Assembly: GCF_009917525.1 (NCBI RefSeq)
Contig: NZ_QZDU01000015.1
Location: 1-40,149, forward strand
Direction of reading: 5' to 3'
Length of the DNA stretch: 40,149 nucleotides
Origin: Acutalibacter sp. 1XD8-36
GTDB taxonomy: Bacteria; Bacillota; Clostridia; Oscillospirales; Acutalibacteraceae
Shown piece by piece: positions 8,743 through 36,074 of the stretch. The translations under genes and the position numbers were made by a program. Numbering within the stretch: the stretch's first letter is position 1; every line of letters begins with the position of its first letter. The notes beneath the pieces are model-generated. The model was not told the DNA's origin. It worked only from the letters and a program-made list of their open reading frames with translations, and made no database searches.

Positions 8743-8838
8743 ATATAGATTTTTAACAAAAAGCATGAGTTTCAAGCGACCGTCAAATTTGTGATATAAA
8801 GAGGGATTCTTACCATAGTTTTTATTAAAAACACATAG

Positions 8839-8876: not shown

Positions 8877-9020
8877 GCCCATAGAGGAGGGCGCAAGCCC
8901 GAAAAGGACGAAGCGTATCATCGAAGCGGTTAAGAGGACCGGACGCTATCTTATATTGCTTTTCAGATACATTGCTTTGTATTACATTTTTAACCAAGAA
9001 AATTCAAGGAGGCTTTTAAA

Positions 9021-14637: not shown

Positions 14638-14638
14638 G

Positions 14639-15817: not shown

Positions 15818-15966
15818 AGTGTAGACCTCTTTCCTTTGGTGATTTGCCCTGTTGAGGCAACCTCACAATAGCACACGGCCTGCCGGAAGTCCAGTGGCAG
15901 ATCCACTTTCTACTTCTGCAACAAAATGTGTGGGCTATGGCTGTCCATAGGCGAATCACTTTGTCG

Positions 15967-17126
15967 CTAGGCGCTGTGCAGGAGTACGTCTGTCATTACA
16001 GTTGCGGCCTGATTTTTTAACTCCATCTGCGGGTGGCAGTAGGTACGCTCCAGGAAGGAGGTATCAGCGTGGCCAGCCAATTCTGCTACAGTTTGCTTAT
16101 CCACGCCATGGTGGAGCAACGATGAAATCGCATAATGGCGCAGGGTGTGGAGGTGAAAAGAATCCGGGAAACCGTTTTCCTTGAAAATTTTTCGCAGGTG
16201 CTTTGTAAATGTATCCGGATGGATGAAGTTCCCATATTCATCGGCGAATAGATAGGGGCTTACCTCGCGCCCAGCTTTTTGCGCCAAGTTATTCTTATAG
16301 TGACAATAGCCCAGCACCAACGACGTGATTTCATCTTCGATCACATATTGCGGCTGCGGCCATTCTTGGTCGGCCCCTCCTGCACCCCCTGGCCGGGAAT
16401 GTGGCTCCGGGAGCGGCTGACCGTAAGTACGCAGCGAGACTTATCCATCATAATGAAATCGTGCCATTTCAAAGCGCAGAGCTCACCCCGGCGGCACCCG
16501 GTGTAGAGCGCAAGCACATAGAAAATTTTGTACTCCTGCGGCTCGTCCAGGAGCGCATTAAGGAACCGGTTGGCATCTTCCTCGCTGGGAATAAATTGCT
16601 CACGCTTTTCAGTGTCGGGCAAATCAATCATCCGTGCCGGGTTCTTCTGGATGATTTCGTTCCGCTTAGCATCACTGAGCACCGCCGATACCACCGTCAA
16701 ATATTTCTGCACTGTGGCCTCTTGCACAGGCTTGCCGTGATTGCTGCGCTTACGAAGTTCCACTAGCATATTCTCCAGAGCAATGGGCCGCAGTTTGTTT
16801 AGCTTGATGGCTCCGATGAAAGGGTAGGTTACTTTCAACATTCGCTGGTAGCTTGCGATGGTACCCGCCGCGTACTTCACCTGCCTGTCCAGCCAGCGGT
16901 TAGCGTATTCCTCGAAAGCCATCTCTCCATCCTCGCAGAATCCCTGCTTGATAGTTCTCTCCATTTCCTCGGCGGCATGAGAAACGTACTGCCGGACACC
17001 ACGCTTGCCAACGCTGTCCGGCACAGTGATCGTCTTGGCCTTTGAAATTTTCCGTCCGTCAGGGCTATACCCATTGCTGACAGTAATCTTGAATTTGCGC
17101 TCGTTCAACTGCTTGATACTTGCCAC
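15967..17126 (-). pseudogene. Second tyrosine recombinase, frameshifted
   Basis: Two consecutive reading frames together make one integrase. The first (17126-16341) has the arm-binding start MASIKQLNERKFKITVSNGY, the core-binding domain and the catalytic R in YTGCRRGELC, then stops after NGRSRNM. The second (16344-15967) continues with EDEITSLV and supplies H-x-x-R in LHTLRHYAIS, H in LAGHADTS and Y in RTYCHPQ. They meet at AATATGTGATCGAAG around 16341-16346, where one base gained or lost breaks the frame. It differs from the intact recombinase in sequence. It lies 12 bp from the relaxase gene and is probably the original integrase of the mobilization module. Separate translation of two halves from the GTG is possible but unlikely to be active. 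Confidence 0.8.
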
Positions 17127-17138
17127 TGAAATTCCTCC

Positions 17139-18491: not shown

Positions 18492-18496
18492 TGTAG

Positions 18497-18817
18497 CTAT
18501 TGGCGTACCTCCTTGTCCGCAAGAGTGAAAAACGCATCGTATAGTCTACTCAAATCTTCGTGTACCTGCTCCAAGTACACCGCATTGATTTGGCCCATGT
18601 TTGCCAGAACGGTCAGTTGGTTGAGGTTATTGCCGATGGCCTTTAACTCCCGCGCCACGGATTTCCCATCCAGAATAACATTGACTCTGCCGCGCATTGC
18701 CACCGCGCGGATATAGTTGCTAGGAGACATCATGGCTTGTTCCGACTTCTCCTGGATGTGCTGAAACTGTTCCTCCGTGAACCGAACCGTAAAGGCCCTG
18801 TCCTTTTTATTATTCAT
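18497..18817 (-). CDS. mobC: MobC relaxosome accessory protein
   Basis: 106-residue small DNA-binding protein of the MobC family, which helps open oriT for the relaxase. A ribbon-helix-helix-like N-terminus (AFTVRFTEEQFQHIQEKSEQ) is followed by MSPSNYIRAVAMRG and the family signature ARELKAIGNNLNQLTVLAN. A strong AGGAGG stands before the ATG at 18817. It is the first gene of the mobilization operon, 5 bp before mobA, and directly downstream of the oriT-like region, which is the usual order. Confidence 0.88.
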   Translation of the reverse strand: MNNKKDRAFTVRFTEEQFQHIQEKSEQAMMSPSNYIRAVAMRGRVNVILDGKSVARELKAIGNNLNQLTVLANMGQINAVYLEQVHEDLSRLYDAFFTLADKEVRQ

Positions 18818-18860
18818 TAAATTCCTCCTATCCTGGGTATGGCTTTTTCCTAGAGTGGGT

Positions 18861-18903
18861 GCGGGCTACTGCCCGCTGAATGTGCCGTCCGACAACGTCG
18901 GAC
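18861..18903. other. Candidate oriT region with inverted repeats
   Basis: Two perfect inverted repeats lie 44-86 bp or more upstream of mobC: GCGGGC-TACT-GCCCGC (18861-18876) and GTCCGAC-AAC-GTCGGAC (18887-18903). Inverted repeats just upstream of a mobC-mobA operon are where oriT is usually found. No nick site can be assigned from sequence alone. Confidence 0.5.
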
Positions 18904-18918
18904 GAGCGCTCTGCTTGC

Positions 18919-18942
18919 CCTCCCCCAAGGGGGAGGTTTTTT
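18919..18942 (+). terminator. Strong hairpin with T-run in the mob/rep intergenic region
   Basis: CCTCCCCC-AA-GGGGGAGG followed by six T on the + strand. It would stop + strand transcription just before the candidate oriT ends; no + strand gene is found upstream, so it may instead insulate the mob operon or belong to oriT. Confidence 0.55.
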
Positions 18943-19116
18943 GTAGGACACCGCCACTTGCACCTGTCCGCGCAAAAGCGGCTCTGTGTGGCCTCACACG
19001 GGCCTGTCTGGGAGGACTGCGGTTCCTTCCCCATCCAGCCCTTAAAACCGCCACACGTGGCCGACACGGGCCGAATATGGGGCTGCTGTCGCTCTGCTTT
19101 GGCCGCACCTGAATCC

Positions 19117-19250
19117 AAGGGTGCAAGAGTGCAAGGGTGCAGAGAAACTCAAAGCTTTTTACCGTCACACACACTATGTAGAGTCTGCTACACACTCCTC
19201 GCACAAGATAGAAGAGTGCAACTAAAAACTTTTGCACCCTTGCACCCTTC
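19117..19250. repeat. Iteron-like GGGTGCAAG repeats next to the RepA-like gene
   Basis: AAGGGTGCAAGAGTGCAAGG (from 19117) contains direct copies of GTGCAAG. AAGAGTGCAA recurs at 19212-19221, and the inverse TTTGCACCCTTGCACCCTTC lies at 19231-19250, overlapping the end of the RepA-like gene. Clustered short repeats beside a replication ATPase gene could be an origin of replication. The rest of 18943-19116 holds GC-rich short inverted sequences (such as CCGC-GCAAAA-GCGG) but no gene I can support. Confidence 0.5.
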
Positions 19251-20214
19251 AACATAAAAGTCTCCAATCCCATCTCTCTCCTTTTTTCACGGAATCAACT
19301 CCGAGATTATCTTTGGCAATTTTCAGTGTCCGCTTGGAGATGTCAGCCTGCTTTGCTATCTGAAACATCTCGCTGGCAGGAACTGAAACCCCTCCGCTTA
19401 GCTTGTCCTTTATCAGTTTTTCGGCTAGGTCAACCTTAGAATCTGTTGGCCCACCGTTCAATAAATCACCAGCGGTAATCTTTTCGTAGCCGTCTACCCA
19501 GTGCGGACTGCCGTCCTCAATGCTGAACGCCACTGACTTTCCCTCCGGAGCAAGAGAGGATTTGTCGTGGACGATGACACGAATGTGCGGGTCCATTTTC
19601 ATTCTGCCTACAAGAAGAACGCTCCGAGCAGCGGCGCGGAAATCCATGGAGCCCAAGCCACGGTAAGCACTGTTAGCACCAACTGCCTTATTAAGATGGC
19701 CAATCAAAACGATGGCACAGCCAGTCTGCTCGGCAACGGTGGTGAGACGCTTGAGCACATCCCGAATCTCGTTGGCGCGATTCATATCCACGTCCCGGCC
19801 CAGGTAGCCTTGGAGCGGGTCGAGGATCACCAGCTTGGCACTGGTCGATAGGACTGCCTGCTCGATGCGGCTGTCGATCAGGCAGAGGGTGCGCTCTGTT
19901 TCGTCAATGCACATGATACGAGTGAGGTCAGCGCCTGCGTTTATGAGCCGGGGTTTGATTGTGTCGCCCAGGCCATCCTCGGCAGTCTGGTAGAGAATGT
20001 TGATGGGGTCGCGCGACTCCATGCCTGGTAGAGCTTGTCCTCGGCTGCAAATAGCGGCAATCCATAGCGCCAAGGTTGTTTTGCCCTCGCCGGGGTTGCC
20101 TTGGATGATGGTGAGTTTACCCTGTGGTATGTAGGGATACCACAGCCAGTGTACCTCCTGAGTTTCCACTTCGGACATACGGATAAGGCGAAGTTCGGTT
20201 TGATTTTGGGTCAT
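19249..20214 (-). CDS. RepA-like AAA/RecA-fold ATPase (replication or helicase)
   Basis: 321-residue P-loop ATPase of the AAA_25/RepA type. The N-terminus IPQGKLTIIQGNPGEGKTTL holds Walker A at 39-46, KLVILDPLQG is Walker B, and IVLIGHLNKAVG is the RecA/DnaB-like sensor segment. The C-terminal 70 residues resemble a winged helix (SVPASEMFQIAKQADISKRT). In RSF1010-type plasmids the RepA member is the replicative helicase, and in mobilizable elements such genes accompany mob genes. The gene lies between the oriT/iteron-like region and a small upstream reading frame with which it shares a transcript. It probably helps extrachromosomal replication after excision. AAGGAG lies before the ATG. Confidence 0.82.
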   Translation of the reverse strand: MTQNQTELRLIRMSEVETQEVHWLWYPYIPQGKLTIIQGNPGEGKTTLALWIAAICSRGQALPGMESRDPINILYQTAEDGLGDTIKPRLINAGADLTRIMCIDETERTLCLIDSRIEQAVLSTSAKLVILDPLQGYLGRDVDMNRANEIRDVLKRLTTVAEQTGCAIVLIGHLNKAVGANSAYRGLGSMDFRAAARSVLLVGRMKMDPHIRVIVHDKSSLAPEGKSVAFSIEDGSPHWVDGYEKITAGDLLNGGPTDSKVDLAEKLIKDKLSGGVSVPASEMFQIAKQADISKRTLKIAKDNLGVDSVKKGERWDWRLLC

Positions 20215-20387: not shown

Positions 20388-20439
20388 GTGAATATCGCAG
20401 GACAGTGGCTTTTGCCATATGGGACAGGAGGGACACGCT

Positions 20440-21570
20440 ATGCCAATGGGAATCAAACAGCAGAACGATATCATGCGTACGACTATTGATGTTTGGGAGG
20501 ATAAAGTCTTCCTCAACGAGAAGGAGTACCCTGCGGGTCACTTTGCCACGGAAGTTTTAAATCTTCCTCCGGGCTTTGTTGATACTACTGCGAAAAAGGC
20601 TCTTGACCTAATGTCTTTGCTTCCGTACATAACATATCAACCAGACGACGAAAAGCTGGTGGAAATCTTTCCTCAGATAAAACAAATTGTAATAGAGATC
20701 TTTGAGGATTTATCTGTGATCGAACCGTTCTCCCTGTGGAACATCAAGGAAGAGCAGGGTCTTGCCGAGGCTATGTTTTCCGAAGATAGCTTGAATGACT
20801 TGCGTAATAGGCCCATGGCCTGGGACTTTATTAAGATATACTTATCAGCGTTAATCTCTGTTCCTTTTGCCGTTTATCATTTTGCTGAAGCGGTTATAGA
20901 CCTGGAGCGAAACTGCCTGTGCCGCCTTGACAAGCGCACTGAAACCTATTTTGCGATGGGTGTGCATGACACATTTAACCATCCGGAGTTCCAAAAATTT
21001 ATTTCTGAAACTCAAGTACACGAAATAGAACCGTTTACTTATTCTCCCCAAATGACATCGTCCTATTGCTTTGCCCGCGACCCAAAGCATTACGGCGAGA
21101 TGATATTTGTCAACCGACTGTTCTTCGACAGATACATGGACTTCTTTGTTTATGACTTGCTAAACGGTATGCACCACGGCCACGCCCCAAGCAAATGCCA
21201 GAACTGCGGAAGATATTTTCTGACTACTGATGCACGCAAGCCCAAGTATTGCGACGGCATGGCTCCGCAGAACCCACACTATACCTGCCGTCAGTACGGC
21301 GCGATGAATCAGCAGAAAGAAAAGAACGCCAATCACCCCATCTTCCAAGTATACAAAACCCGCACGGGTACGATCCGCAAGCACCATCAGCGTGGGAAAA
21401 TTACGGACGAGGAACGGCAGGAGGCCATGAAGGTCTGCGAGGAGTTGCGGGATAGGGCGCTGTTCGATACTGAGTTTGCCCAAGGAGAGTACCTCCGACT
21501 AATGGAACAGGACGCCATCTATGCCGAGGTGAGTAGACGGCTTGGATATGGTGACATCCATGACAAATGA
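20440..21570 (+). CDS. DUF6076-like zinc-ribbon protein
   Basis: 376-residue protein of unknown function, seen repeatedly in clostridial mobile elements. The N-terminal two thirds are mixed helical without a recognised fold. A C-terminal zinc ribbon follows, with KCQNCGRYF, then PKYCDG and YTCRQYG. A basic stretch KTRTGTIRKHHQRGK lies after the ribbon and may bind nucleic acid. The start at 20440 has AGGAGG 7 nt upstream, and earlier in-frame ATG codons lack a site. Its stop overlaps the start of the sigma-factor gene, so the two are coupled. A distant relative lies at 34963-35994. Regulation of element genes is a guess from the neighbouring sigma factor. Confidence 0.75.
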   Translation: MPMGIKQQNDIMRTTIDVWEDKVFLNEKEYPAGHFATEVLNLPPGFVDTTAKKALDLMSLLPYITYQPDDEKLVEIFPQIKQIVIEIFEDLSVIEPFSLWNIKEEQGLAEAMFSEDSLNDLRNRPMAWDFIKIYLSALISVPFAVYHFAEAVIDLERNCLCRLDKRTETYFAMGVHDTFNHPEFQKFISETQVHEIEPFTYSPQMTSSYCFARDPKHYGEMIFVNRLFFDRYMDFFVYDLLNGMHHGHAPSKCQNCGRYFLTTDARKPKYCDGMAPQNPHYTCRQYGAMNQQKEKNANHPIFQVYKTRTGTIRKHHQRGKITDEERQEAMKVCEELRDRALFDTEFAQGEYLRLMEQDAIYAEVSRRLGYGDIHDK

Positions 21571-22872: not shown

Positions 22873-23055
22873 TTAACATTCAAGATGATATTCAAAAACT
22901 CCATGCATTATCTTGGCGGAGAAGATGGTGCATCCGCTGAATTCCTTTGTCTTGCCCCGCAAGTCGATGAGGTCCTGCACTCGGTCGAAAACCTCCGGCT
23001 CGATGATGAATGGGTGGCTGTCCTCGACATAGTACCAGAGCGGAATGGTGTTCAT
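22873..23055 (-). pseudogene. Serine recombinase fragment
   Basis: A 60-codon piece of the middle of a large serine recombinase (resolvase/TndX type). WYYVEDSHPFIIEPEVFDRV followed by LIDLRGKTKEFSG and IFSAKIMHG corresponds to the recombinase domain that ends at the zinc-ribbon cysteines. The ribbon itself and the catalytic N-terminus are missing, and it abuts a polA fragment of opposite direction. It is a relic of another integrative element. Confidence 0.72.
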
Positions 23056-23418
23056 CGACCTGCCGCCCGGCAGACGGATCTCCTACGTCAAGCCCTGCAT
23101 CGGCGTGAACCGCTTTGGATCCGAGAGCGTGACCTACGAGGACATCAACCTGGGGAAGTGACCCGGTTGGAAACCTATGGTCCAAAAGTCACAGAAAATC
23201 TGGTTCAGGCCGTATCCAGATATATTCTGGCATACGCATTGAAGACCTTGCGGCACTGCTTCATCGTGGGCAGCATCCACGACGAGCTTATCATCGAATG
23301 CGGCCCTGGTGTATCCCTGCAGGCGGTCTGCGATCAGATGGGCAGGACACCGCCGCGGATTTCGGGATTGCTCTTACGGGCGGATGGATACGAGTGCCAG
23401 TTTTACAAGAAAGATTAA
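23044..23418 (+). pseudogene. DNA polymerase I (family A) C-terminal fragment
   Basis: Remnant of a phage/ICE-type family A polymerase. One frame reads FIDLPPGRRISYVKPCIG and VNRFGSESVTYEDINLGK, then stops at about 23161. Another continues RLETYGPKVTENLVQAVSR and IVGSIHDELIIECGPG (motif C, H-D-E) up to ADGYECQFYKKD at 23418. The break is a frameshift or small deletion near 23155. The N-terminal domains are absent. It stands between the sigma/DUF6809 module and system B, marking a seam between elements. Confidence 0.75.
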
Positions 23419-23422
23419 AATA

Positions 23423-23448
23423 CGGGCAGCTCTGATTTGGGCTGCCCG
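23423..23448 (-). terminator. Terminator of the system B operon
   Basis: On the minus strand CGGGCAGC (23448-23441) pairs with GCTGCCCG (23430-23423), followed by TATTTTAATC. It lies 9 bp after the stop of the last operon gene. It may also serve the polA remnant on the other strand. Confidence 0.75.
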
Positions 23449-23457: not shown

Positions 23458-24396
23458 TTATCCTAAAGATTTATACCAAGCGATGAAAAACTCTCGTTGT
23501 CGCTCATACCACTCTTTAGAAATAAGGACTTGCGTTTTTCCAAAGGTATACGGTTTTGCAATAAATCTGACTTCGCCATCGCTGCCTCTGTTGTCGGTTA
23601 TCCCGGGTATATATTTCTTCATAAACGGCTTTTGCGTATGGAAGACTTGCTTGGTCCATTCTGGTGTACACATCTCGTCGATTTCTATGTCAGAAAAAAC
23701 GAAGCCACTTTTCTCGAGATTCCCCAAAGCAGTATAAACAAACTGACCGATTTTAAGATTCCCATCGGGAAGAGGAGGAATAGGAATTGATATGGATGTG
23801 TTCGCGGAGACAGATACTGGCTTTTCCTCAGCATCACCCGGACTCACAATATTAAGCGTTGGAGTGCTTGCTTTCTTTGCTTTACGGTTTTTGGATCGCA
23901 ACTTCTGAGTAGCAAATGCTCGAATCCCTATAAGTTCCATGAGGAAAAGAGCCTCATCAAGATATTGATTGAGCAGAGTCTTTTTGAAAATATCTACTTT
24001 GGGCGGATTACCACTTTTTTTGTTGTCGGAGTCTAAATTCTGAATGACGCTTGCTTTTTCAATCAGGACATATTCCAGATAATCAATATCGGATCTATTG
24101 AGGGTGTCATCTTTTGTGGTCAAGATAATGACGCTTTCCCACCAGTCTTTCCCCGCGATATGCTGAGATATTCTCTTTGCCAAATCGGATGATTGTCCTA
24201 CATACACTTTTTCTGGAGATAAAAGCAAATAGACACCATAACGGTCGCAGGCACCAGTATTAATTAAATCAGATACCGATTCCCTGGGGGCAGAAAAAAG
24301 CTCTCCGGCATTCCAATTAGAATCCTCAATCCGGATAACCCCACTTAGGTTGCCATCATAGAGCAGCATATTTATGATTTTTGCCTGCGCACCCAT
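23458..24396 (-). CDS. GIY-YIG domain protein (system B)
   Basis: 312-residue protein with an N-terminal nuclease-type GIY-YIG domain: YGVYLLLSPEKVYVGQSSDL then AKRISQHIAGKDWW, with a downstream acidic residue in DYLEYVLIEKA as the expected metal ligand. The first tyrosine-containing motif is GVY rather than GIY. A linker rich in Lys/Ser (about 175-215) separates a C-terminal domain of about 100 residues (FVYTALGNLEKSGF, CTPEWTKQVF) that I do not recognise. The start at 24396 has GGAGG upstream. It is the last gene of the operon, 33 bp after vsr. It may be one of the DNA-cutting components; activity is inferred. Confidence 0.78.
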   Translation of the reverse strand: MGAQAKIINMLLYDGNLSGVIRIEDSNWNAGELFSAPRESVSDLINTGACDRYGVYLLLSPEKVYVGQSSDLAKRISQHIAGKDWWESVIILTTKDDTLNRSDIDYLEYVLIEKASVIQNLDSDNKKSGNPPKVDIFKKTLLNQYLDEALFLMELIGIRAFATQKLRSKNRKAKKASTPTLNIVSPGDAEEKPVSVSANTSISIPIPPLPDGNLKIGQFVYTALGNLEKSGFVFSDIEIDEMCTPEWTKQVFHTQKPFMKKYIPGITDNRGSDGEVRFIAKPYTFGKTQVLISKEWYERQREFFIAWYKSLG

Positions 24397-24429
24397 AGTT
24401 TCTATCCTCCAAAAGCGGTATTATTTTTC

Positions 24430-24876
24430 CTATCGGATCATCCCTGCGGCGGTTAGGACGTCCTTAATCATGTTAACACAATCAACAACATTCTTTCGAA
24501 TATCGCTTTCCCATATCCTTATTACCGTCCAGCCCTGCGATTTCAACTCTTCATTGACTTCTCTATCTCGTTCTATATTTCGTAGTATTTTCTTCCGCCA
24601 GAAGTCAGAATAGCCAGCAAGTTCCTCTTCCAATGAACCTAAACCACGGATAGCCCAATTGTGTCCGTGCCAGTAATCTCCATCACAGAATACAACAACA
24701 TGATACTTCGTAAAGACGATATCTGGCTTTCCCGGCAACTTTTTATAATTGACCCGGTAACGTAGGTCCTCTTTCCACAAGGCTTTTCTGAGCATTAGCT
24801 CTGGCTCAGTGTCCTTTGAGGGAATAGCAGACATGATCTTGTGTGTTACCTTGGGGTCTCGTTCTTTGCTGCTCAT
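24430..24876 (-). CDS. vsr: Vsr-like very-short-patch repair endonuclease (system B)
   Basis: 148-residue PD-(D/E)xK-type endonuclease of the Vsr family. Classical Vsr nicks beside T-G mismatches made when 5-methylcytosine deaminates, which fits the C5 methyltransferase in the same operon. Family motifs: IMSAIPSKDTEPELMLRKAL, the catalytic D52 in KLPGKPDIVF, FCDGDYWHGHNW with zinc or metal ligands, and FWRKKILRNIERDREVN. Length is normal for the family. It starts 9 bp after the 193-aa gene. In such operons Vsr may act as a repair enzyme or as a nuclease of the defence system; sequence does not decide. Confidence 0.9.
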   Translation of the reverse strand: MSSKERDPKVTHKIMSAIPSKDTEPELMLRKALWKEDLRYRVNYKKLPGKPDIVFTKYHVVVFCDGDYWHGHNWAIRGLGSLEEELAGYSDFWRKKILRNIERDREVNEELKSQGWTVIRIWESDIRKNVVDCVNMIKDVLTAAGMIR

Positions 24877-24885
24877 AGGATTCCT

Positions 24886-25467
24886 CTATGCGTTACAGAA
24901 AAACGCTTTAACACCAACCGCTCCAACGGCGGTAATGATATGTGTTTTATCCGCTTCCGTTAGGGATTGGCCGGTCAGCGACAGTTTCAAACATATTGAG
25001 GGAGCTTTGCCGTCAATGGTCAAGTTCGGTTCATTCGCAATTATTTCCAGAGACTTGCGAAGGGCGGTTTCCCATTTGAGAACAGTTCCTCCGCTTACAA
25101 CATAAATATGTCCCGACTCAGCCCGCAAGACAAACAGGCCGCCTTGCTTGCCTTTTCCTTTCTGAATGACCGCCGCAGTTTCATTGAAAACATTTTTGAT
25201 TACATTCTCTGGCGTGGACGCGGCAAGAGCTTTCTTGGTGGCCGCTTTGGTATATGCGTTTAAAACGCCGTCTTTGATGTAGGTTCTCACACGTTCCTTG
25301 GGCATATATTCGATGATAACCTTTCCAACCTCTGGGTCATCAACCAGCGTGTCAAGGAAGCGTCCACTCTCAATTCGGCCGCACTCCATATAGCCAAACT
25401 CGTCAGCTTTTTTGTAGACCGCGCGTTTGACTTTAGCCTGGATATTTTTAGGTAAAGCATTAGCCAT
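24886..25467 (-). CDS. Unknown 193-aa protein of system B
   Basis: I do not recognise this protein. It is soluble and mostly basic in the first half (LPKNIQAKVKRAVYKKADEF), with KVIIEYMPKERVRTYIKDGV in the middle, and a second half rich in beta-type sequence (GGLFVLRAESGHIYVVSGG). No catalytic motif is obvious. It begins one base after the helicase gene's stop, with GGAGG upstream, and is followed by vsr after 9 bp, so it is a fixed part of the operon. It may be an adaptor or specificity subunit. No closer statement can be supported. Confidence 0.75.
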   Translation of the reverse strand: MANALPKNIQAKVKRAVYKKADEFGYMECGRIESGRFLDTLVDDPEVGKVIIEYMPKERVRTYIKDGVLNAYTKAATKKALAASTPENVIKNVFNETAAVIQKGKGKQGGLFVLRAESGHIYVVSGGTVLKWETALRKSLEIIANEPNLTIDGKAPSICLKLSLTGQSLTEADKTHIITAVGAVGVKAFFCNA

Positions 25468-25468
25468 C

Positions 25469-27127
25469 TTAAAAGCCCTCCGGGAACTTCAGTTTTACTT
25501 CGTCATCAGAACCACTGAGATCCGCGACGTCCTCCAGCCACATATTAACAAAACTCTCGACTCTCGCGTCAGAGAAGGAGACGAAGCCCTCTTGTAAGTA
25601 CACAACTTCATTCTCCGCGCCTTTTGCTTTTCCCTCGTTGTTCATATCAATCATCTCCGCCATCCGCCTGATATCAGAGACGAAGTCCAACACTATAACT
25701 TTTTCCTTGCCCTCTGAAAGCCGAAGTCCGCGACCCAATTGCTGCACAAATATCCTTCTGGAATGGGTGGCTCTAAGAAAAACCAGAATATTGACATCAG
25801 GAATATCGATTCCCTCGTTCATCACATCAACCGCGCACACAGCTTGATAGTTGCCAGAGGCAAAAGCCAAGAGACGTCTCCGGCGCTCCGCTTTATCAAC
25901 CTTTGAAAGCGCCGCGCAGGGTATTCCCGCAGCGGACAACATTTCCGCGAAACGATTGCTGTGTTCGATAGACGGAGAAAAAATCGCGATACGGGGATTA
26001 GCCACTTCACGCATAGCGTTTTTCAATTCCGATATGACCGCCTCGTCACGTTGCGGAAGGAAAAGGCGCTTATTCAGATCCCGGATTGAAAGGTTCTGCT
26101 GACTCATGCTTTGCATGTTATCCCAGTCCACATTATCGCATAGGATTCTATAATCGACTTTTGACAGGTATCCCATAGCCATTCCATCAACGAGTGACAC
26201 TTTTGCGATGGGGTCTCCAAAAACAGATGTCAAACTCTGACCATCACCGCGCCAAGGCGTAGCTGTCATGCCAACAAGGAATCTTGGGCTTAAGTGCTCC
26301 AAGCACGATCTGAAACCATGCGCGAGAGCGTGATGTGCCTCGTCAACAATGACCACATCAAATTGGTCTGGGTCGATTCCAGGAAGGTACCCATACAGGC
26401 TTTGATACAAGCCAAACGAAATACCCTCGGTGTTTCTCGGCGGAAGCCCGTCAAAGAAAACTGACGTGGGAACTTCCTTCGTGATCTGCGGCCAGAATCC
26501 CTGCTCTAACTGGAGCGCCAAGTCAGTCGCGTGGCAGAGCACGAGAATTTTTCGACATCCACGATCCCACAGATTCCTGGCAATGGTTGCCGCTATAACG
26601 GTTTTGCCAAGACCGGTAGCAACGATATAAAATGCTCGTTTGCCACCTTCGTCATAAGAAGTGATTACTTTCTGAACTATATTATCCTGGTACGGGCGTA
26701 GCTTTCTGAAACCAGAATGATTTGCGGACATCTGTTCTATGATACTTCTCAGGAAGACCCCGTTCCATAATTTGAGCGTATAGCCGTTGGCGGCAAGCTG
26801 CGCTTGACGCTGCCTCGCGGTTCGAGTGAATTCACCGTTTGTGGCGACCGCCGCGATATTTGTATCGTAAAATGAGAGCGCGTTAATTGCCTCATTTACA
26901 GCTTGCGGCCCAATATACCGATCACCGGTGACCGCTTTTGATTGAACCACCCAGGATTTTACCACATCGCCTTCAGCGCGGGTCGCGATAACGTCACCGC
27001 CTTTGTCGCCCGCTCCACCAATCACGTTGATATCCCGCCACCCGAGGTGTTCCATCATACGAGCGATTGCTCGCTCTAAGCCTTTCCAGTTATATCCGTT
27101 TGCGATGTCCTCAGTATAAAAATTCAT
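25469..27127 (-). CDS. Mrr-type nuclease fused to a superfamily 2 helicase (system B)
   Basis: 552-residue fusion. The N-terminus (about 15-110) is an Mrr-like PD-(D/E)xK nuclease: MEHLGWRDINVIGGAGDKGG with D45 in GGDVIATR and Q62-S-K64 in VVQSKA. From about 140 an SF2 DEAD/DEAH helicase follows: Walker A in VATGLGKTVIAA (170-181), V-D-E-A-H-H at 261-266, MTATPW (motif III), a second RecA lobe, and the arginine-finger motif VI QQLGRGLRLS. The family resembles the restriction (R) subunit helicases. It overlaps the upstream GHKL gene by 4 bp. It probably moves along and cuts unmodified DNA; whether the nuclease needs the partner proteins is unknown. Confidence 0.88.
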   Translation of the reverse strand: MNFYTEDIANGYNWKGLERAIARMMEHLGWRDINVIGGAGDKGGDVIATRAEGDVVKSWVVQSKAVTGDRYIGPQAVNEAINALSFYDTNIAAVATNGEFTRTARQRQAQLAANGYTLKLWNGVFLRSIIEQMSANHSGFRKLRPYQDNIVQKVITSYDEGGKRAFYIVATGLGKTVIAATIARNLWDRGCRKILVLCHATDLALQLEQGFWPQITKEVPTSVFFDGLPPRNTEGISFGLYQSLYGYLPGIDPDQFDVVIVDEAHHALAHGFRSCLEHLSPRFLVGMTATPWRGDGQSLTSVFGDPIAKVSLVDGMAMGYLSKVDYRILCDNVDWDNMQSMSQQNLSIRDLNKRLFLPQRDEAVISELKNAMREVANPRIAIFSPSIEHSNRFAEMLSAAGIPCAALSKVDKAERRRRLLAFASGNYQAVCAVDVMNEGIDIPDVNILVFLRATHSRRIFVQQLGRGLRLSEGKEKVIVLDFVSDIRRMAEMIDMNNEGKAKGAENEVVYLQEGFVSFSDARVESFVNMWLEDVADLSGSDDEVKLKFPEGF

Positions 27128-29490
27128 GACTCAAGCTCCCTGACAAGGAAGTCCACACTGAGAGACGCCCTTGTAAGTTCGTTCTTCTGGATACGCTGGC
27201 CAGACCAGGATATCACTCTCAAGGTGTCTTTGATGAATGACAATATTCTATCCTTTGAGTCCTCGCGGGCGCGTTGTGTTGCGTTACTGTCCTGGAGGTT
27301 GATACTTAAGTATGGCGTTGAGAACGCCTTCCCATCAAATACTTCTTCCGGGAAGCGATCCACTAATCGGTACAAGGTCTTGGGCGGTACAAACTCAATC
27401 GCGTCAAAGCCGGCCGCAGTCGCGTTCTGAAACGGCATAAGCAAACCGGGGTTTGCCTGAATAATACTTGCCACCGTCTCCTCAACTTCGCCCGTGGATT
27501 CATGGACGCATTTGACAGCGTCTTCCGCTCTGCCGCGCAACGCTTGTACCAGCTTTTCTCTCAAGAGTTCAAACGCGCTGCTTGCTCGTTCCTGTAGTGC
27601 TTGGCGGTCGATTCTGGCGTCATCCATTGATACCTCTACCAAGGATGAGTAAATAGAAACCACGTCAGGAAGCTGATCGCGTGCCTTGAGCTTTTCCGCC
27701 ATATACAACAGGAGTAGCATCTGTGGGGTAATAGGGTATTGCGTCAGCAGCGGATGTGTGGGGTCATATACAAAATCGCAATCAATCCCATCCGAGTTGA
27801 AATGGCAGGGCTTTCTTACGCCATTCTGTTTTATTTCCCCGCACGTGAGCTCATAAGCCCGGATGTTCAGCGAACCAGACCGGCCAAAAGGATAGTTCCT
27901 TCCAGAAAGATATTGAATCGGAACGGAACGCTGCAGAAGATCATCCATCGAGGAGGTCTCAGGTACCGCAGATGGAGTAGCGGGCGTAGTGGGAGTAGCG
28001 GGCGTTGTGTCACCAGATCCAGTTGCCGACGAGTCTCCAGATGCCGAATCACCACCGAGATACGCTCCAATATCATCTGAAGGCGCATCGCCAGTATTGA
28101 CCGGTGTGGTGCCGGACTTTGTTCCGCTCTTCTGGTCTTCTTCCTGCGCCGCTTTCCACCATTTCGTATCATCAATATAATCGCGGACACCTTTTCTGAA
28201 CTCCGCGGCGTATTTCTTCGCGATATCGTTAGGAGCGAATAGGCATACGGTTCCCTTATCAACACGGCGGTAGGCATTTACCAGCAGACAAAGGGGAGAA
28301 GCGTTTTCTTCCGTAAAACCCATTGCCTTGCGTGATTTTGGAAGGAACGGGCCAACACCGCAAATTGCTTCTCTGGTTTGCTCCCACGAGGCGTCTGACC
28401 TGTCAAAGTCATTTTTCTGATAGGTAGGAAGCAAGTAATCCACATGAAGCTCGCCGACAATGCGGCCACCAATTGATGTACCAAGTTCAACAGGATACTG
28501 CAGCTCCTTCTGCAAAGTCAATGGATTCTCGTACTGGAAGAACGTTTTATCTGAAATCAGTATTTTTCTGCCGTTCCTGATGAAGTCAATGCCGAAGTCA
28601 TTCGGATCGGCGTATCGTTGAATACCAAGCCAACCAGTCAGGCGTTTTTCGCGCTCTACAATGTGAGTCGGGAAAGCCTCACCCTCCTGCATAGCGGTAT
28701 AGTATTCCTCCGCTTCATCATAGCTGAGATAGCAATTGCGGCTCATATCAAAAAGCGCGGAGCCAAGGCTGCGGTCGATGTTTATCCTGGCGGCGATATT
28801 CTGCTTGTTATACCTCACGTACCGAGACTCAGCCCATACGCAGTGATTCCGTGGACGAAGCTGTTTGCTCTTCACAGTTATCGTGATATCCTGGCTGCTA
28901 AGAAGCGGTGTGTACACAAGCTCCAATCTTTGCCTGATTTCAGACTCCTTGCCAGAAAGCTCGCTGAGAATACCGGATTTCAGCTTGGAAATCGTAATAC
29001 GGGTGCCGCACTCATCAGGATCGGTTTTTGATTTGCGGATAATCGGTGCGTCAAATTTCTTCGCGTCGATGAGTTTCTGAAAATCGATTTTTACACCGAC
29101 CCAATCGGCATCACCTTTGCGTGTCGAGAGAACCATTGTCTCCTCGCCTAATCGAGCTGTCGCGATATTGAATCCCATACCAAACAAGCCGAGGTTTCCG
29201 ATTGGATCATTGCTGGTGTAGCCCGCCCGGACAGCGTTCTGGAGCTGGTCTATAGACATACCTGCGGCGTTGTCGATAATCTCAACGGTTCGGGCCGCAG
29301 CACCGACAGAATCAAAAGACCATGTGACTGTAATGCGCCTCTCACGATCTTCCAGACTCATGTCTGAAAGAAACGCATCGATGGAGTTATCAACCAGTTC
29401 AGCGATGCACTGCCAAGTCTGGAAGGGGATTTCGCCCAGCGTCCGCAAAATCTGCGGAGTCGGCGTGATGTCCATAGTGTTGATACTCAT
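27124..29490 (-). CDS. MutL/MORC-like GHKL ATPase (system B)
   Basis: 788-residue protein with an N-terminal Hsp90/MutL/MORC-type ATPase domain: N35 in AELVDNSIDAF, D73-x-A-A-G77 in IIDNAAGMS and a glycine lid at 98-107 (GNLGLFGMGF). An S5-like domain follows. A Thr/Pro/Ala linker (about 480-520, TPATPTTPATPS) separates a C-terminal domain of about 250 residues that I do not recognise. No histidine phosphoacceptor box is present, so this is a conformational clamp-type ATPase, not a histidine kinase. It overlaps the methyltransferase gene upstream (ATGA) and the helicase gene downstream. GHKL ATPases of this kind recur beside Dcm and Vsr genes in bacteria. Confidence 0.85.
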   Translation of the reverse strand: MSINTMDITPTPQILRTLGEIPFQTWQCIAELVDNSIDAFLSDMSLEDRERRITVTWSFDSVGAAARTVEIIDNAAGMSIDQLQNAVRAGYTSNDPIGNLGLFGMGFNIATARLGEETMVLSTRKGDADWVGVKIDFQKLIDAKKFDAPIIRKSKTDPDECGTRITISKLKSGILSELSGKESEIRQRLELVYTPLLSSQDITITVKSKQLRPRNHCVWAESRYVRYNKQNIAARINIDRSLGSALFDMSRNCYLSYDEAEEYYTAMQEGEAFPTHIVEREKRLTGWLGIQRYADPNDFGIDFIRNGRKILISDKTFFQYENPLTLQKELQYPVELGTSIGGRIVGELHVDYLLPTYQKNDFDRSDASWEQTREAICGVGPFLPKSRKAMGFTEENASPLCLLVNAYRRVDKGTVCLFAPNDIAKKYAAEFRKGVRDYIDDTKWWKAAQEEDQKSGTKSGTTPVNTGDAPSDDIGAYLGGDSASGDSSATGSGDTTPATPTTPATPSAVPETSSMDDLLQRSVPIQYLSGRNYPFGRSGSLNIRAYELTCGEIKQNGVRKPCHFNSDGIDCDFVYDPTHPLLTQYPITPQMLLLLYMAEKLKARDQLPDVVSIYSSLVEVSMDDARIDRQALQERASSAFELLREKLVQALRGRAEDAVKCVHESTGEVEETVASIIQANPGLLMPFQNATAAGFDAIEFVPPKTLYRLVDRFPEEVFDGKAFSTPYLSINLQDSNATQRAREDSKDRILSFIKDTLRVISWSGQRIQKNELTRASLSVDFLVRELES

Positions 29491-30473
29491 TTCTCCGTTC
29501 CTCCGATCTTGTCAAGATATTGTTCCACGCTCCGCGCGACAAGGTATGCCATAATCGGTGGAACAGCGTTTCCTATCTGGGAAATGTTCACGGTCTTGGA
29601 GAACTTGAATCCAAAATCATCAGGGAACGTCTGAATTCGAGCGCATTCCCTCACCGTCAATCTTCGATCCAACGAATAGTGAAACTGCACTCTGGATTTT
29701 GGATTCGCGCGAATGGTGTACGCTGGCTTGTCTTTCTGATTACTCTCGTCGCCTTGACCATTCCCTTTTTTCGCTTTGGATGCCGCGAAATAATCTCCTT
29801 GGTTGGGGATAGAATTGTCGGTAACAGTTACGAGGTCGCCAATAGCCCATTCGATACTCCTGTGCTTGCCCTTGAACTGAGGCTCCGGTTCTTCTGGGAA
29901 TCCATATTGCTCATAGACGTCATTTCGGACACACATGATAATGAGCCGTGTGCGGCGTTGTGGAACCCCATAATCTGGGGCGAACATCTTCCATACTTTT
30001 ACGATATAGCCCACCGCCGTGAGGTCTTCTTCGATTGTTTTTAGCACCTTGCCCTTTTCCATACGTTCAAGATTGATTACATTTTCGCCGACAACGATCT
30101 TCGGCTTATGCGTGTTCATGTAGGCGATAAGGGTCTGGTACAATCTTCCGCGCTCAGATTCAAGACCGCCAAGCGGACCACAGGATGAGAACTCCTGACA
30201 AGGGAACCCGCCAATGAGAATATCCGCTTTTGAAACATCCTCCGGCTTGACTGTCGCCAAGTCTTTGACAAAAGCGTGTCCCACTCCAAAATAGTCATTA
30301 TACGTCTCAATGCAGCGAGGCTCATTATCATAAGCCTCAAGTATTTTGAATGGTAGCTCCGGGTAGTCCTCGTCATGGTATTTGAAACCACCGCGGAAGC
30401 CCAAATCCAAACCGCCGCATCCGCAGAAGTAGGACACTACGGAATAAGGCGCTTTTTCTTTGTTCGCAGCCAT
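29487..30473 (-). CDS. dcm: C5-cytosine DNA methyltransferase (system B)
   Basis: 328-residue Dcm-type methyltransferase. Motif I is YFCGCGGLDLGF; motif IV with the catalytic cysteine is GGFPCQEFSS (P91-C92); motif VI is GENVINLERM; motif VIII is VPQRRTRLI; motif IX is RRLTVRECARIQTFP; motif X is GNAVPP. The target-recognition region between VIII and IX is about 70 residues and contains a Lys/Gly/Asn-rich stretch. All catalytic motifs are intact. The start at 30473 has GAAAGGAAAG 8 nt upstream; TTG two codons earlier is possible. It lies 47 bp after the NACHT gene and overlaps the GHKL gene. It would mark the host DNA; the recognised sequence cannot be predicted. Confidence 0.92.
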   Translation of the reverse strand: MAANKEKAPYSVVSYFCGCGGLDLGFRGGFKYHDEDYPELPFKILEAYDNEPRCIETYNDYFGVGHAFVKDLATVKPEDVSKADILIGGFPCQEFSSCGPLGGLESERGRLYQTLIAYMNTHKPKIVVGENVINLERMEKGKVLKTIEEDLTAVGYIVKVWKMFAPDYGVPQRRTRLIIMCVRNDVYEQYGFPEEPEPQFKGKHRSIEWAIGDLVTVTDNSIPNQGDYFAASKAKKGNGQGDESNQKDKPAYTIRANPKSRVQFHYSLDRRLTVRECARIQTFPDDFGFKFSKTVNISQIGNAVPPIMAYLVARSVEQYLDKIGGTEK

Positions 30474-30520
30474 GTCCAATACTTTCCTTTCTTTATTTTC
30501 TATTTCATACCTCTCACTTT

Positions 30521-33160
30521 TCAGCTAAATCGGTCAAAGAAATTATGCCCCTTTGGTTTTTGCTTATCAAGTAAAATATTCAGGCAGTTTCTCGCTGCGG
30601 CATACTCTTTTTTCAACGAGAACGAGTCATCGTCGAGAGCGGCCAGCATGTCTTTGTGCAGGAATCGCTTTTCTCTCAGCTTTCCAACTTCTACTTCATA
30701 CAGCCATCCGACTTCATCAGGCATACCGTACTCTTGCTGATATTCGTATGTTATTTCACCAATCTCCACTAAAGACTGGTTCTCATCGGGTTCCGCGACG
30801 TATGCGTATCTCTCCCGAATGAACTCGTCTTCACGTGGAAGGGAATCAAAATCATACACCTCATCAAAGAAGGTGGTACGGATAAACTCATAGATAAATG
30901 ACGCCGGCGACACATCAGCCTCGTACTCAGTATCTCCACTGGTAAACTCTATCTGAGGATACATGGTTTCCAGAAACGTCCAGTATCCGTCCCCAGCATC
31001 GCATTCTTCAAAGAGCTTTCTCAAATACGGGATAAAGACATACTCATCAATTTTCCCAGGGATCATGTCGTAAAGCATGGAGAAAGTCTTATCGCCGTAA
31101 TTACGAGATCGCAGGTTATCGAAGAAATCGCCGATCCCCTCAAGGGTACGATCTTTCTGTTTTGAGAAAAACAGAGCGCAAAAGTACTCCTGGAAGGATC
31201 GATGAGTGAAATGATATTTACCGCTTTCAAAGTACATGAGGCACAGGTTATCACACAGGTCATCTCTAAAAGCCTTGGCCACTATGTGCCTGTCTGGCCG
31301 TTTCGCGTGTTGGGTCAGGCTGTTGAAATACTCCGTGAACTCATATTCCATGAATTCATATTTTTCATCGTAGTATGTGCGCGCGCAGAATTCTGAAAAC
31401 CACTCCGCGAATTCATCAGCCGTAAGGCCGGTCTCCGACGGGCGCTTTAGCCCCTTCAACGCATCATGGCTTTTTGACAGAGCGTCATAGGCGTCGCGGT
31501 AGAAGAGATGTATCTTCGACGGCACGTCCCTAAACAACTCATAGGTCATGTACATGATCGTCAGGAGCAATGGGTTTTCCGCGAACTGACGGTGGGTAGT
31601 ATAGAGCGTAGACTCCAGTCTTGCTCGGAATTCCTCTTTGATAGAAGAGTCGTCCGCGCTGCACTCCAGCTTGTCAACAAGGGCAAGCGCCTGATCCTTC
31701 GTAAACGGCCTGATTTTGAGTATCGTAAAACGGGAATAGGCCGAGAACGTCCGATGCGGTCTTGAAGAGACAACGTACTGGTTGTTAGGAAACCGATCAA
31801 TAAACTCTTCCAGCCTTTTCTCGAAAGTGTCCGCCTGCTTTGTTCCTACTTCATCCAAGCCGTCCAATAAAAGGAGGCAACGGCCAGCGTCAAGCAGAGA
31901 TGCCAAGTGCTCCGCAGTTATCCCTGGGCTGAAATTGCGTATTTTGGTGACCAAGTATTCCAATAGTGAACCGCTGCTAACATCGTAGTCCTTCAGCATC
32001 AAAAAAATTGGAACTATTCCTGTTTCTGGATAATGCTCGATGGCGTCCAGAAGAAGGTGGCGGATCATCATTGATTTTCCGATACCGCCTGTGCCGATTA
32101 TGATTACGAAGTTGGAGCACGCAGCCAAGTCTTGAGAACTGGCGTCGTGGATGTACTCAACCGTGTAGGTATTTCGGAAACTCCCTGGAACCGGAACATT
32201 CCGAATGATGTCATTACACACATAAATATTCCGTACTGGCGTCTGTTGATACGGGTTGAGCAGAGTGCGAACAGAGCCGTATTTTTGCCCAATCTTCTCC
32301 AAATACAGCCTTATGTCTTCATCATCGGTATCAGGACAATCCTCAGAAACGCCAATGAGCCCTTCTTCGAGGTAGAATATCCCGTCCTTATAAAGAACTA
32401 AGTCCGGCGCGGTATCAGCATGGCGCGTTATAATCGCGGCACCCATACGTTCTTCAGGTGCGTCATCCGCAGGCGCTTTCTCACTTGCGTCTGGTAGCTT
32501 ACTATAAACTCGGAGTGGTGAGATACTACCCCCAATATCGCTTTTGAGCTTCCACTCAGCTTTTTTTGAACTCTGGCTATACCAGCTTTCAAATGTTGCC
32601 CTGCCGGATTCGGCATCCGGGCTGTTGAGAAGGACATAGTGAAGAACGCTAATCAAAAAGGGCTCAAGCACCACATTGGAGACAAAGGGTAGATCATCCG
32701 CGCAGACAATGGTGTCATAATCGATTAGGAATTCCTCATTCTCTTGAATATCCTCGTCTAAGTGGATTGTTTCGATCAGTGCGCGGACGAGCCATTCACA
32801 ACGTTCCAAATTTAGATAGTTGCTAATAAACTCTAACATTCTTATTGGAAGGTCAGGGTTTTTTGTTTTTACCGCAGCGTCAAAAGCGGTAATTGTTGCC
32901 CGCTCCGTGAATGGAACATAAACCCCGGAGTCTGTTCGGCAGGTTTTGTATAAGGTACACGCCTTGCTGAATGTTCTGCCAGCGGTCGAAATATCATCAC
33001 CCGTAACAACTTCAATGAGTCCTGCGTAAACATCAACGGCTGATAAATGATCCGTTCCGCCTTCAAATTTGTTTCTGGCCTTCCTGCGAACTCGTCGCGC
33101 TTCCAAAAGCAAACCGAACAGAATTCCACCGCATAGGTGTGGGATTTTTTCTGCTGGCAT
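30521..33160 (-). CDS. NACHT-domain NTPase (system B, first gene)
   Basis: 879-residue STAND/NACHT protein. The N-terminal 330 residues are not recognised (helical first 130, then mixed) and should carry the effector or sensing function. The NACHT ATPase domain follows: Walker A IIIGTGGIGKS (356-363), an acidic Walker B LLLLDGLDEVG (429-439), and SSRPHRTF with the sensor arginine. The C-terminal 400 residues (NPLLLTIMYMTYEL, HRSFQEYFCALFFS) have the helical winged-helix part and a tail typical of bacterial NACHT defence proteins. GGAGGG lies before the ATG at 33160. It is the first gene, behind its own promoter and a leader of about 180 nt. In bacteria NACHT proteins are known to confer phage defence; its part in this operon is inferred. 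Confidence 0.85.
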   Translation of the reverse strand: MPAEKIPHLCGGILFGLLLEARRVRRKARNKFEGGTDHLSAVDVYAGLIEVVTGDDISTAGRTFSKACTLYKTCRTDSGVYVPFTERATITAFDAAVKTKNPDLPIRMLEFISNYLNLERCEWLVRALIETIHLDEDIQENEEFLIDYDTIVCADDLPFVSNVVLEPFLISVLHYVLLNSPDAESGRATFESWYSQSSKKAEWKLKSDIGGSISPLRVYSKLPDASEKAPADDAPEERMGAAIITRHADTAPDLVLYKDGIFYLEEGLIGVSEDCPDTDDEDIRLYLEKIGQKYGSVRTLLNPYQQTPVRNIYVCNDIIRNVPVPGSFRNTYTVEYIHDASSQDLAACSNFVIIIGTGGIGKSMMIRHLLLDAIEHYPETGIVPIFLMLKDYDVSSGSLLEYLVTKIRNFSPGITAEHLASLLDAGRCLLLLDGLDEVGTKQADTFEKRLEEFIDRFPNNQYVVSSRPHRTFSAYSRFTILKIRPFTKDQALALVDKLECSADDSSIKEEFRARLESTLYTTHRQFAENPLLLTIMYMTYELFRDVPSKIHLFYRDAYDALSKSHDALKGLKRPSETGLTADEFAEWFSEFCARTYYDEKYEFMEYEFTEYFNSLTQHAKRPDRHIVAKAFRDDLCDNLCLMYFESGKYHFTHRSFQEYFCALFFSKQKDRTLEGIGDFFDNLRSRNYGDKTFSMLYDMIPGKIDEYVFIPYLRKLFEECDAGDGYWTFLETMYPQIEFTSGDTEYEADVSPASFIYEFIRTTFFDEVYDFDSLPREDEFIRERYAYVAEPDENQSLVEIGEITYEYQQEYGMPDEVGWLYEVEVGKLREKRFLHKDMLAALDDDSFSLKKEYAAARNCLNILLDKQKPKGHNFFDRFS

Positions 33161-33346
33161 TATCGACCCTCCAAAAATAGTAACTCATAGAAACACAGGG
33201 AAACCACGGAAACAGCACCAGTCGGTTGACAGCAACCATATCTACAATAGGTTTGAAGGTGAAGTTAAAGGACAGGGCTGCGTGTTTCATCAGTGTCAGA
33301 CCCCAGGGAAGGGACGCTTGGGCACTACAAAATTACCTAATATTGC

Positions 33347-33375
33347 ATTATATCACAATCCTCGCTCAATGTCTA
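33347..33375 (-). promoter_or_regulatory. Promoter of the system B operon
   Basis: On the minus strand TAGACA (33375-33370) and TATAAT (33352-33347) are 17 bp apart. Transcription would begin near 33340, leaving an untranslated leader of about 180 nt before the NACHT start. The rest of 33161-33673 contains no gene I can support. Confidence 0.65.
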
Positions 33376-34962: not shown

Positions 34963-35994
34963 TCAGTGCGAATCTAACCATTCGCGGAATTCATTCATTG
35001 TCATGGTGCCGTCAAGCACCGAGTCCCTCTTAATCGGAGCATATATCGTCAGGTCGCTCAGCTTCTTATTAATTTCGTCTGCCCAGTCCGGGTGTCTGCG
35101 CCGAGCGTTGTACAGACGTCCCTTGGCATTCTTGATGAGCTTGTCCAGTTCGCTTGTGCGTACCTTCTCCCGGTAGACAATCTGCGGGTAGTAGTCGTTG
35201 CACGTCCGTCCCGGACACTGAGGGGCGGGGTAATTGCAGTATTTTGCTGAAGACCTTTTTGCAGTGAAAAATCTCCTGCACTCGGGGTTCTGGCAACGCA
35301 TAACCTTGGTGGCCGACTCTGCCATGTGTGAAAACTCAAATACGGCCATGGCGAGGAAGCTACTGATGACAAAGCTGTGCTCAAAGGTGCTACTGGTCGC
35401 ATCATACGAAGTTTGCATGACAATCCCCGGAACAAGGCTGGAATCATGCAGGGCAGCGCAAAGCTCGTCATAGCAGACCTGTTCCTCATCCGTAGCCGTA
35501 CCCGACCAGACGGCGGAAGTAGCTGCGAAGAGATCAATGCCGTTTGTTAGGTCGATGATGTAGTTGTTGTAACAAAGCCGGAGGAACTCACCGACCGTTT
35601 CAAAACCGATGTCATCAAAAAGCCAGTCGAAACTCACAGGCCGCTGTTTTTCCTGCGTAAGGAGTCCAGCGGCTGTTGCACGGTCCAGTGAACGGTATTC
35701 TTCCATGCAGCGGATGATACTGCCTTGGGCAAGCCGCTGAGCCGGGAAAAAATCGTCGTAGAGAAGCGTTTCCAAGATATACCTCTCGGCTTCCTCGATT
35801 TCATCCTGCGTCAAAGCGTTATCCCACATAGGACACATTCCAATGCTGTTACGAACAATCCGGCTGATGTTGTACAGCGTCTCCCCCTGGAAAATCCGGC
35901 AAAGGAGATTGCCTACTGGGTAACTGATATCCGGGTGTCCCAGCACGGTATTGACTCCACCCTCATATGTGAGCGTAAGACCGTTAACACGCAT
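34963..35994 (-). CDS. Second DUF6076-like zinc-ribbon protein
   Basis: 343-residue protein with the same plan as the one at 20440-21570: a helical N-terminal two thirds without known motifs and a C-terminal zinc ribbon (MRCQNPECRRFF, AKYCNYP, QCPGRTCNDYY), followed by a basic helical tail (DKLIKNAKGRLYNARRRHPD). Overall sequence similarity outside the ribbon is weak. The start at 35994 is chosen because AAAGGAG lies 8 nt upstream; an ATG at 36057 lacks a site. It is transcribed with the downstream membrane protein gene from a strong promoter. Having two such genes in one element suggests fusion of two ancestral elements. Confidence 0.75.
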   Translation of the reverse strand: MRVNGLTLTYEGGVNTVLGHPDISYPVGNLLCRIFQGETLYNISRIVRNSIGMCPMWDNALTQDEIEEAERYILETLLYDDFFPAQRLAQGSIIRCMEEYRSLDRATAAGLLTQEKQRPVSFDWLFDDIGFETVGEFLRLCYNNYIIDLTNGIDLFAATSAVWSGTATDEEQVCYDELCAALHDSSLVPGIVMQTSYDATSSTFEHSFVISSFLAMAVFEFSHMAESATKVMRCQNPECRRFFTAKRSSAKYCNYPAPQCPGRTCNDYYPQIVYREKVRTSELDKLIKNAKGRLYNARRRHPDWADEINKKLSDLTIYAPIKRDSVLDGTMTMNEFREWLDSH

Positions 35995-36074
35995 AGCTGT
36001 CGCTCCTTTCCTCCGGCTTGGCTCAGTGGCCGACTGTGCCGCCCCGGAGTATTTCATCGCTAACGACAGTCTGT

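Follow-up and report, generated by a model that had tools for sequence, protein, structure and literature searches.

An operon of Acutalibacter sp. 1XD8-36 best read as a MORC-type 5-methylcytosine restriction-modification core with NACHT and GIY-YIG accessory genes

Introduction

Gene neighbourhoods built around GHKL ATPases of the MORC/paraMORC type were predicted to be restriction-modification (R-M) systems by Iyer, Abhiman and Aravind in 2008 (PMC2292703). In the available parts of that study, the GHKL ATPase stands beside a superfamily 2 (SF2) helicase, a cytosine methylase and Vsr, and the helicases are often Rad25-like and fused to a restriction-endonuclease-fold domain. An operon with these genes, and with a NACHT and a GIY-YIG gene in addition, was analysed in a contig of Acutalibacter sp. 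1XD8-36 (NZ_QZDU01000015.1, positions 1 to 40,149), and this whole stretch of 40,149 nucleotides is called the window. Its SF2 helicase bears a nuclease domain and is encoded beside the GHKL ATPase, with the methylase and Vsr nearby. The words Mrr and GIY-YIG are absent from the main text of the 2008 study, NACHT was not looked for there, and the exact layout of the present core may be drawn in its figure 2.

Two other described systems resemble single members of the operon. As far as the available text of PMC12169576 goes, bacterial NACHT proteins (bNACHTs) of clade 14 have, like the NACHT protein of the window, a NACHT domain and a short C-terminal SNaCT domain, and no Pfam effector domain was found; those bearing SNaCT defend against phage, and no R-M partner is named for them. 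VcSduA, a paraMORC3-type Shedu protein with a nuclease domain and tested anti-phage defence, shares the GHKL ATPase with the window. Unlike the operon, it is a single protein with its own DUF4263 nuclease, and methylase, helicase or Vsr partners are not described in the available part of PMC12137116.

The best explanation for the operon, and in our judgement a probable one, is an R-M core for 5-methylcytosine (m5C) with NACHT and GIY-YIG modules that are shared with other systems, in which the NACHT protein would form a second layer of defence.

Results

The operon and its proteins

Seven intact open reading frames (ORFs) were found on the minus strand within 23458-33160, where the initial annotation had placed them.

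33375-33347, minus strand: promoter-like site TAGACA-17-TATAAT, 11/12 matches, extended -10
30521..33160, minus strand: NACHT STAND ATPase of 879 amino acids (aa), accessory (Pfam)
29487..30479, minus strand: C5-cytosine DNA methyltransferase (Dcm), core (Pfam and TIGR00675)
27124..29490, minus strand: GHKL ATPase of MORC/paraMORC type whose C-terminal domain is helical and may be HEPN-like, core
25469..27127, minus strand: fusion of an Mrr-family nuclease and an SF2 (ResIII/RadD/XPB-like) helicase, core (Pfam)
24886..25467, minus strand: 193-aa protein, family not assigned, core (no Pfam match)
24430..24876, minus strand: Vsr mismatch endonuclease, frequent companion (Pfam)
23458..24396, minus strand: GIY-YIG protein, PADLOC candidate family PDC-S14, accessory
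23423..23448, scored on the plus strand only: terminator-like hairpin of 10 bp that separates the operon end from the polymerase fragment
23033..23415, plus strand: decayed remnant, C-terminal part, of a family-A phage DNA polymerase that converges on the operon

The catalytic domains claimed for six of the proteins were confirmed by Pfam and their motifs, here named from general knowledge, are intact. The NACHT protein comprises an N-terminal domain (residues 1-270), a NACHT domain (about 350-500; 2.6e-12, 47.3 bits, cut-off 26.7) with Walker A GTGGIGKS and Walker B LLLLDGLDE, and a SNaCT14 domain (697-878; PF22720, 1.5e-52, 179.1 bits, cut-off 27). PF22720 above its cut-off together with a NACHT domain makes it a SNaCT14 NACHT. 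Dcm matched DNA_methylase (1.5e-58) and TIGR00675 dcm (195.6 bits, cut-off 100.65) and carries the motifs PCQ and ENV; its start codon is TTG, with an in-frame ATG two codons downstream. The GHKL protein matched HATPase_c_3 (9.8e-11) and carries the N-box ELVDN, DNAAGM and GLFGMGFN, and a possible S5 domain after the GHKL domain was matched by Morc6_S5 below the cut-off (13.3 bits, cut-off 26.2). The helicase matched ResIII (3.4e-28) and Mrr_cat (1e-14), with the helicase motifs ATGLGKT, DEAHH and QQLGRGLR and, towards the N terminus, D and QSK of the Mrr type. Vsr (1.2e-26) has the motifs PD and WHGH, of which the alignment retained the PD motif and one histidine; the cysteines that bind zinc in E. 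coli Vsr have not been retained. The GIY-YIG domain (1.8e-5) has the residues GVY, VYVG, R, H and E.

The 193-aa protein had no Pfam match. Its family shares the signature VR(T/V)YIKDxxLxxY and a helical N half, and the C half shows a weak likeness to the PD-(D/E)XK fold with the catalytic residues absent. A PDB search by sequence gave no convincing relative for the 193-aa family, for the NACHT protein or for the GHKL C terminus.

The initial annotation knew of no named system with exactly this gene set. This agreed with PADLOC-DB 2.0.0, in which no family matched the GHKL ATPase or the 193-aa protein at E<=0.01, although the kind of core had been predicted in 2008, as noted above from the available parts of PMC2292703. 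MZA loci also hold a MutL-like ATPase beside a helicase in a defence operon, and the initial annotation had named them for comparison; identity with MZA was rejected on profile scores, as was identity with DISARM or BREX.

A conserved core with variable neighbours

Related loci were gathered by their GHKL protein, 13 from a genome contig scan and further close relatives from genome searches and viral contigs; the GHKL gene was the search key, hence its presence is itself no result. After removal of L021, L022 and L050 (repeats of L008, L011 and L006), 21 loci including the window were compared, among which L003 and L004 are near-identical operons. The order Dcm-GHKL-helicase-193 aa was kept in 18/21 loci. 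The exceptions were L012 and L030, with contigs cut inside the GHKL gene, and L014, without a Dcm match in the available sequence. The gene order recurred down to 45% GHKL identity (L029), and therefore the cluster is not a chance arrangement. Vsr followed the core in 15/18 loci, including a match in L026 that is a 96-aa ORF covering half of the profile; no match was found in L008, L029 and L053, and in L014 Vsr lies on the opposite strand.

The remaining two genes were variable. NACHT was upstream in 6 of 20 informative loci (the window, L005, L009, L012, L013 and L028; L027 had too little sequence to be counted), and on the GHKL tree (19 loci; L014 and L027 omitted) its presence switches 4 times. 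GIY-YIG was downstream in 2/18 loci, the window and L005; the sequence of L004 stops 0.5 kb past Vsr. In the other five NACHT loci a small gene of 64-78 aa, which the window lacks, lies between NACHT and Dcm; four of these proteins resemble excisionase/MerR-type regulators by eye, and that of L028 was judged by length alone.

These counts bear on the proposal that all seven genes form one integrated system, in which the GHKL clamp and the helicase would detect unmethylated DNA, Vsr, GIY-YIG and Mrr would cut, and NACHT would be an obligate signalling part. The genes share a strand, and from NACHT to GIY-YIG they are separated by a 41-bp gap, two 4-bp overlaps and gaps of 1, 9 and 33 bp, in agreement with the three tight junctions in the initial annotation. 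TAGACA-17-TATAAT is the best promoter-like site of the region. A scan of the region gave 18 promoters (13.1 in shuffled sequence) and 11 terminators (10.6 in shuffles), no clear excess, and a single promoter and a single terminator for all seven genes, as first proposed, are plausible. L005 moreover retains all seven genes in order at 56-88% identity, with the one small gene added. On the other hand, NACHT and GIY-YIG are each missing from most related loci and also occur beside other systems, and L002, the closest core relative (GHKL 92% identical), has neither. We therefore consider the integrated system very unlikely. The initial view that the operon acts as a unit fits the core, to which the 193-aa gene belongs and which Vsr usually follows, and not all seven genes.

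For the core, the best reading is an ATP-dependent m5C R-M system of the kind that combines a MORC/paraMORC protein, an SF2 helicase, Dcm and Vsr. Candidates for the endonuclease that cuts the Dcm site are the Mrr-helicase and the GIY-YIG protein; as a regular restriction partner of Dcm the latter is unlikely, since it occurs in only 2/18 loci.

The slot upstream of the core held other genes in some loci, namely Lamassu LmuB/LmuC in L052 (9238-12839), a full Mrr gene in L006, and in L026 (5800-10002) a Lamassu-like layout of a 595-aa AAA_23 gene and a 165-aa gene, LmuB/LmuC being typed in L052 only. In L013 an ApeA-like HEPN gene lies downstream (23.9 bits, just below its cut-off, 24.4). L061 encodes a GIY-YIG protein 67% identical to that of the window, beside DISARM and Vsr; there drmA, drmB and drmC are followed by Vsr and this gene (1732-8921).

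Operons of this kind are rare. GHKL matches of any strength were found in 7/398 genomes of the family, 3 of them strong and the window's own included, in 3/391 genomes of the class at E<=1e-30 and in 5/398 of the phylum at E<=1e-20; the samples overlap and some matches are distant. Plasmid relatives in Ruegeria (L046) and Rhodococcus (L048) have annotated Dcm, 'ATP-binding protein', DEAD/DEAH helicase, small hypothetical protein and Vsr genes, and one in Deinococcus (L049, plasmid pDrdI) has such genes without an annotated Vsr. Downstream of the latter, at 14238-17296, lie CBASS-like genes with E2, JAB and SAVED annotations. No plasmid homologues of the 193-aa protein or the SNaCT14 domain were found by tblastn, and diverged 193-aa relatives were recognised in the plasmid loci by position and profile. 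In L046 an Eco29kI-like GIY-YIG gene (30.7 bits, cut-off 30.8) lies between Dcm and GHKL, and some distant members may use GIY-YIG.

A different reading places the suicidal response in the GHKL protein itself, whose possibly HEPN-like C-terminal domain would be released upon restriction failure, as proposed for paraMORC-Ymh proteins. The domain is helical, and the HEPN RNase motif R-x4-6-H is not conserved at the C terminus in 11 aligned close relatives and turns up singly, here and there, in more distant ones. We regard this reading as unlikely. The ExxxH motif that is conserved in the S5 domain of paraMORC2 is absent here, no E/H pair four positions apart being found in at least 9 of 12 alignment rows.

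SNaCT14 NACHT genes and their partner systems

A search of viral contigs with NACHT from P0001 alone gave no loci, and one with an alignment of the SNaCT14 domain gave 28. Neighbours were typed with seed proteins, not full profile libraries, and some R-M genes will have been missed. A modification system adjoined the SNaCT14 NACHT gene in 22 of 26 informative loci, all fetched via NACHT alone; the partners were m5C, type I, type III and BREX systems and another methylase. The other 4 loci had NACHT without recognised R-M. Of the 22 loci with a partner, 20 had their first R-M gene downstream of NACHT in the same direction, 12-1274 bases past the NACHT stop codon. By comparison, 0/7 annotated plasmid NACHTs of other kinds lay beside an annotated methyltransferase.

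A quick tree of the NACHT and SNaCT14 domains, with some long branches, comprised 34 rows including six GHKL loci, and 22 rows were labelled by partner; the rest were 5 loci that lacked downstream sequence, 4 that lacked R-M, L107, and two near-duplicates (L086, L096). The partner type changed 4 times, the minimum for five types, compared with 9-16 changes (mean 13.1) in 1000 label shuffles. The number was also 4 when the near-duplicates were included.

The NACHT-SNaCT half of the window's protein clustered with those of L009 and L012, in line with what GHKL loci should show. Residues 1-270 matched NACHTs beside other systems (L103 44%, L065 37%, and also L088, L095 and L097-L099), and for this reason the N-terminal domain appears to have been exchanged in the window; its type differs from that of the five other GHKL loci.

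From these patterns it is plausible that NACHT backs up restriction. A more specific proposal is that SNaCT14 NACHTs form a portable guard class, in which the NACHT-SNaCT half would be matched to an R-M or BREX partner and sense its inhibition, and the exchangeable N-terminal domain would respond. We offer it tentatively and consider it rather doubtful. No description of a link between SNaCT14 and R-M was found in titles or abstract openings, most subscription papers being outside the search, and a word search of PMC8195603 for five terms was also negative.

The prophage site of the operon

The polymerase fragment of the window (64-68% identity in two pieces; PHROG DNA polymerase 7.8e-24) lies at the same convergent position as a 654-aa polymerase gene in L009. 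A family-A DNA polymerase, an Enc34-type single-stranded-DNA-binding protein (SSB) and a DUF2800 nuclease make up a phage replication module, which was found in the GHKL loci L009, L013, L026, L028 and L030. Module genes were near 20/26 SNaCT14 loci, of which 21 were drawn from a viral collection that favours such finds.

Prophages with this module were sampled by the SSB, as the best 80 of at least 581 loci (L109-L188). At one flank of the module they carry R-M, BREX, NACHT and unidentified genes. Where the cargo side had at least 7 kb (40 loci), R-M was found in 7/7 loci with SNaCT14 and 16/33 without (p 0.014), and at 9 kb or more in 6/6 and 14/27 (p 0.06). A first, smaller seed set, in which BREX with BrxA and the L107 methylase were not represented, gave 4/8 and 13/72 (p 0.058), and 4/8 and 12/45 among loci of at least 12 kb (p 0.22); the second set had six seeds more and a flank filter. 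In the set without NACHT, weak matches (26-60 bits) were counted as R-M, which works against a link, and 6 of the 7 SNaCT14 loci repeat contigs already among the 26. The site is thus a hotspot for R-M even where NACHT is absent, as 16 of the 33 NACHT-less loci carry R-M matches. Hotspots for defence genes in prophages have been described for P2/P4-like phages and for those of Vibrionales and Bacillales (PMC9122126), and the present one was not met by name in the available part of that paper.

NACHT and R-M could thus be unconnected defences that have nothing in common but their cargo site in a prophage. The module genes near most SNaCT14 loci, the R-M matches in NACHT-less prophages and the 4 NACHT loci without recognised R-M argue for it. 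So do the clade-14 bNACHTs, which are active when expressed from plasmids according to the available text of PMC12169576, which argues that a partner is not always needed. However, the partner type switches along the NACHT tree no more often than it must, the first R-M gene is nearly always close and co-directional, and the plasmid NACHTs of other kinds have no such neighbours. We take the independent arrangement as a serious possibility, and lean slightly against it.

Other features of the window

A second R-M-like cluster of low GC (about 33%) lies at 257-6084 on the minus strand. It also holds a 168-aa protein and an HNH protein and, as far as the available text allows, resembles the HEF_HK / Response_reg_2 R-M loci of PMC8011034.

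4177-6084, minus strand: Eco57I-type N6 methylase
1678-4164, minus strand: GHKL protein with two HATPase domains

At 14639-20214 (minus strand) a tyrosine integrase, a second integrase-like ORF, a MobA/VirD2-type relaxase and an AAA_25 ATPase are encoded; together they probably form a mobilisable element, which lies between tRNA-Arg (11582-11658) and the operon. DUF6076 genes flank the operon at 20419-21570 (plus strand) and 34963-36057 (minus strand), and the pair could be element ends or repeated cargo.

Discussion

We infer the following course of events for the preferred explanation, an m5C R-M core with accessory modules. Dcm would mark the host DNA. The Mrr-helicase, aided by the GHKL clamp and the 193-aa subunit, would travel along DNA and cut where the mark is absent, and Vsr most likely repairs T:G mismatches that arise from deaminated 5-methylcytosine. 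NACHT and GIY-YIG would be accessory modules common to different restriction systems. The NACHT protein most likely acts as a second layer, with a cell-level response in infection, perhaps when restriction is blocked or failing. The methylation-guided defence of the initial annotation is retained here for the core as an R-M system, and not for NACHT and GIY-YIG as fixed parts.

Analogues of such a role for NACHT exist. PARIS is an abortive defence triggered by an anti-restriction protein (PMC9122126), and for PrrC and RloC (PMC3710099) a PrrC-like back-up was proposed to be restrained by the R-M system, both as given in the available parts of these papers. The analogy is one of role, with no sequence relation claimed.

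Several points weigh against this explanation. The R-M function of the core was read from its genes, and no Dcm target and no target-reading subunit were recognised. Vsr could be a working nuclease instead of a repair enzyme. Co-inheritance of linked genes alone would also yield the result of the NACHT tree. The R-M surplus with NACHT is modest, the six added seeds all come from NACHT-bearing loci and favour the link, and in a hotspot rich in R-M the presence of such genes alone is weak evidence.

The papers listed by literature searches included no experimental account of a multi-gene MORC-type R-M operon. The core may be regarded as a compact member of the MORC-type R-M operons predicted in 2008; it links a relative of MORC with DNA methylation and offers a small gene set for testing the role of a GHKL clamp. 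The prophage hotspot is a place to seek more defence genes. Plant and animal NLRs watch over guarded proteins. The SNaCT14 pattern suggests an idea that can be tested directly, namely that restriction systems are watched over in a similar way by some NLR-like proteins of bacteria. If this were true, one receptor family would guard m5C, type I, type III and BREX systems against the anti-restriction of phages.
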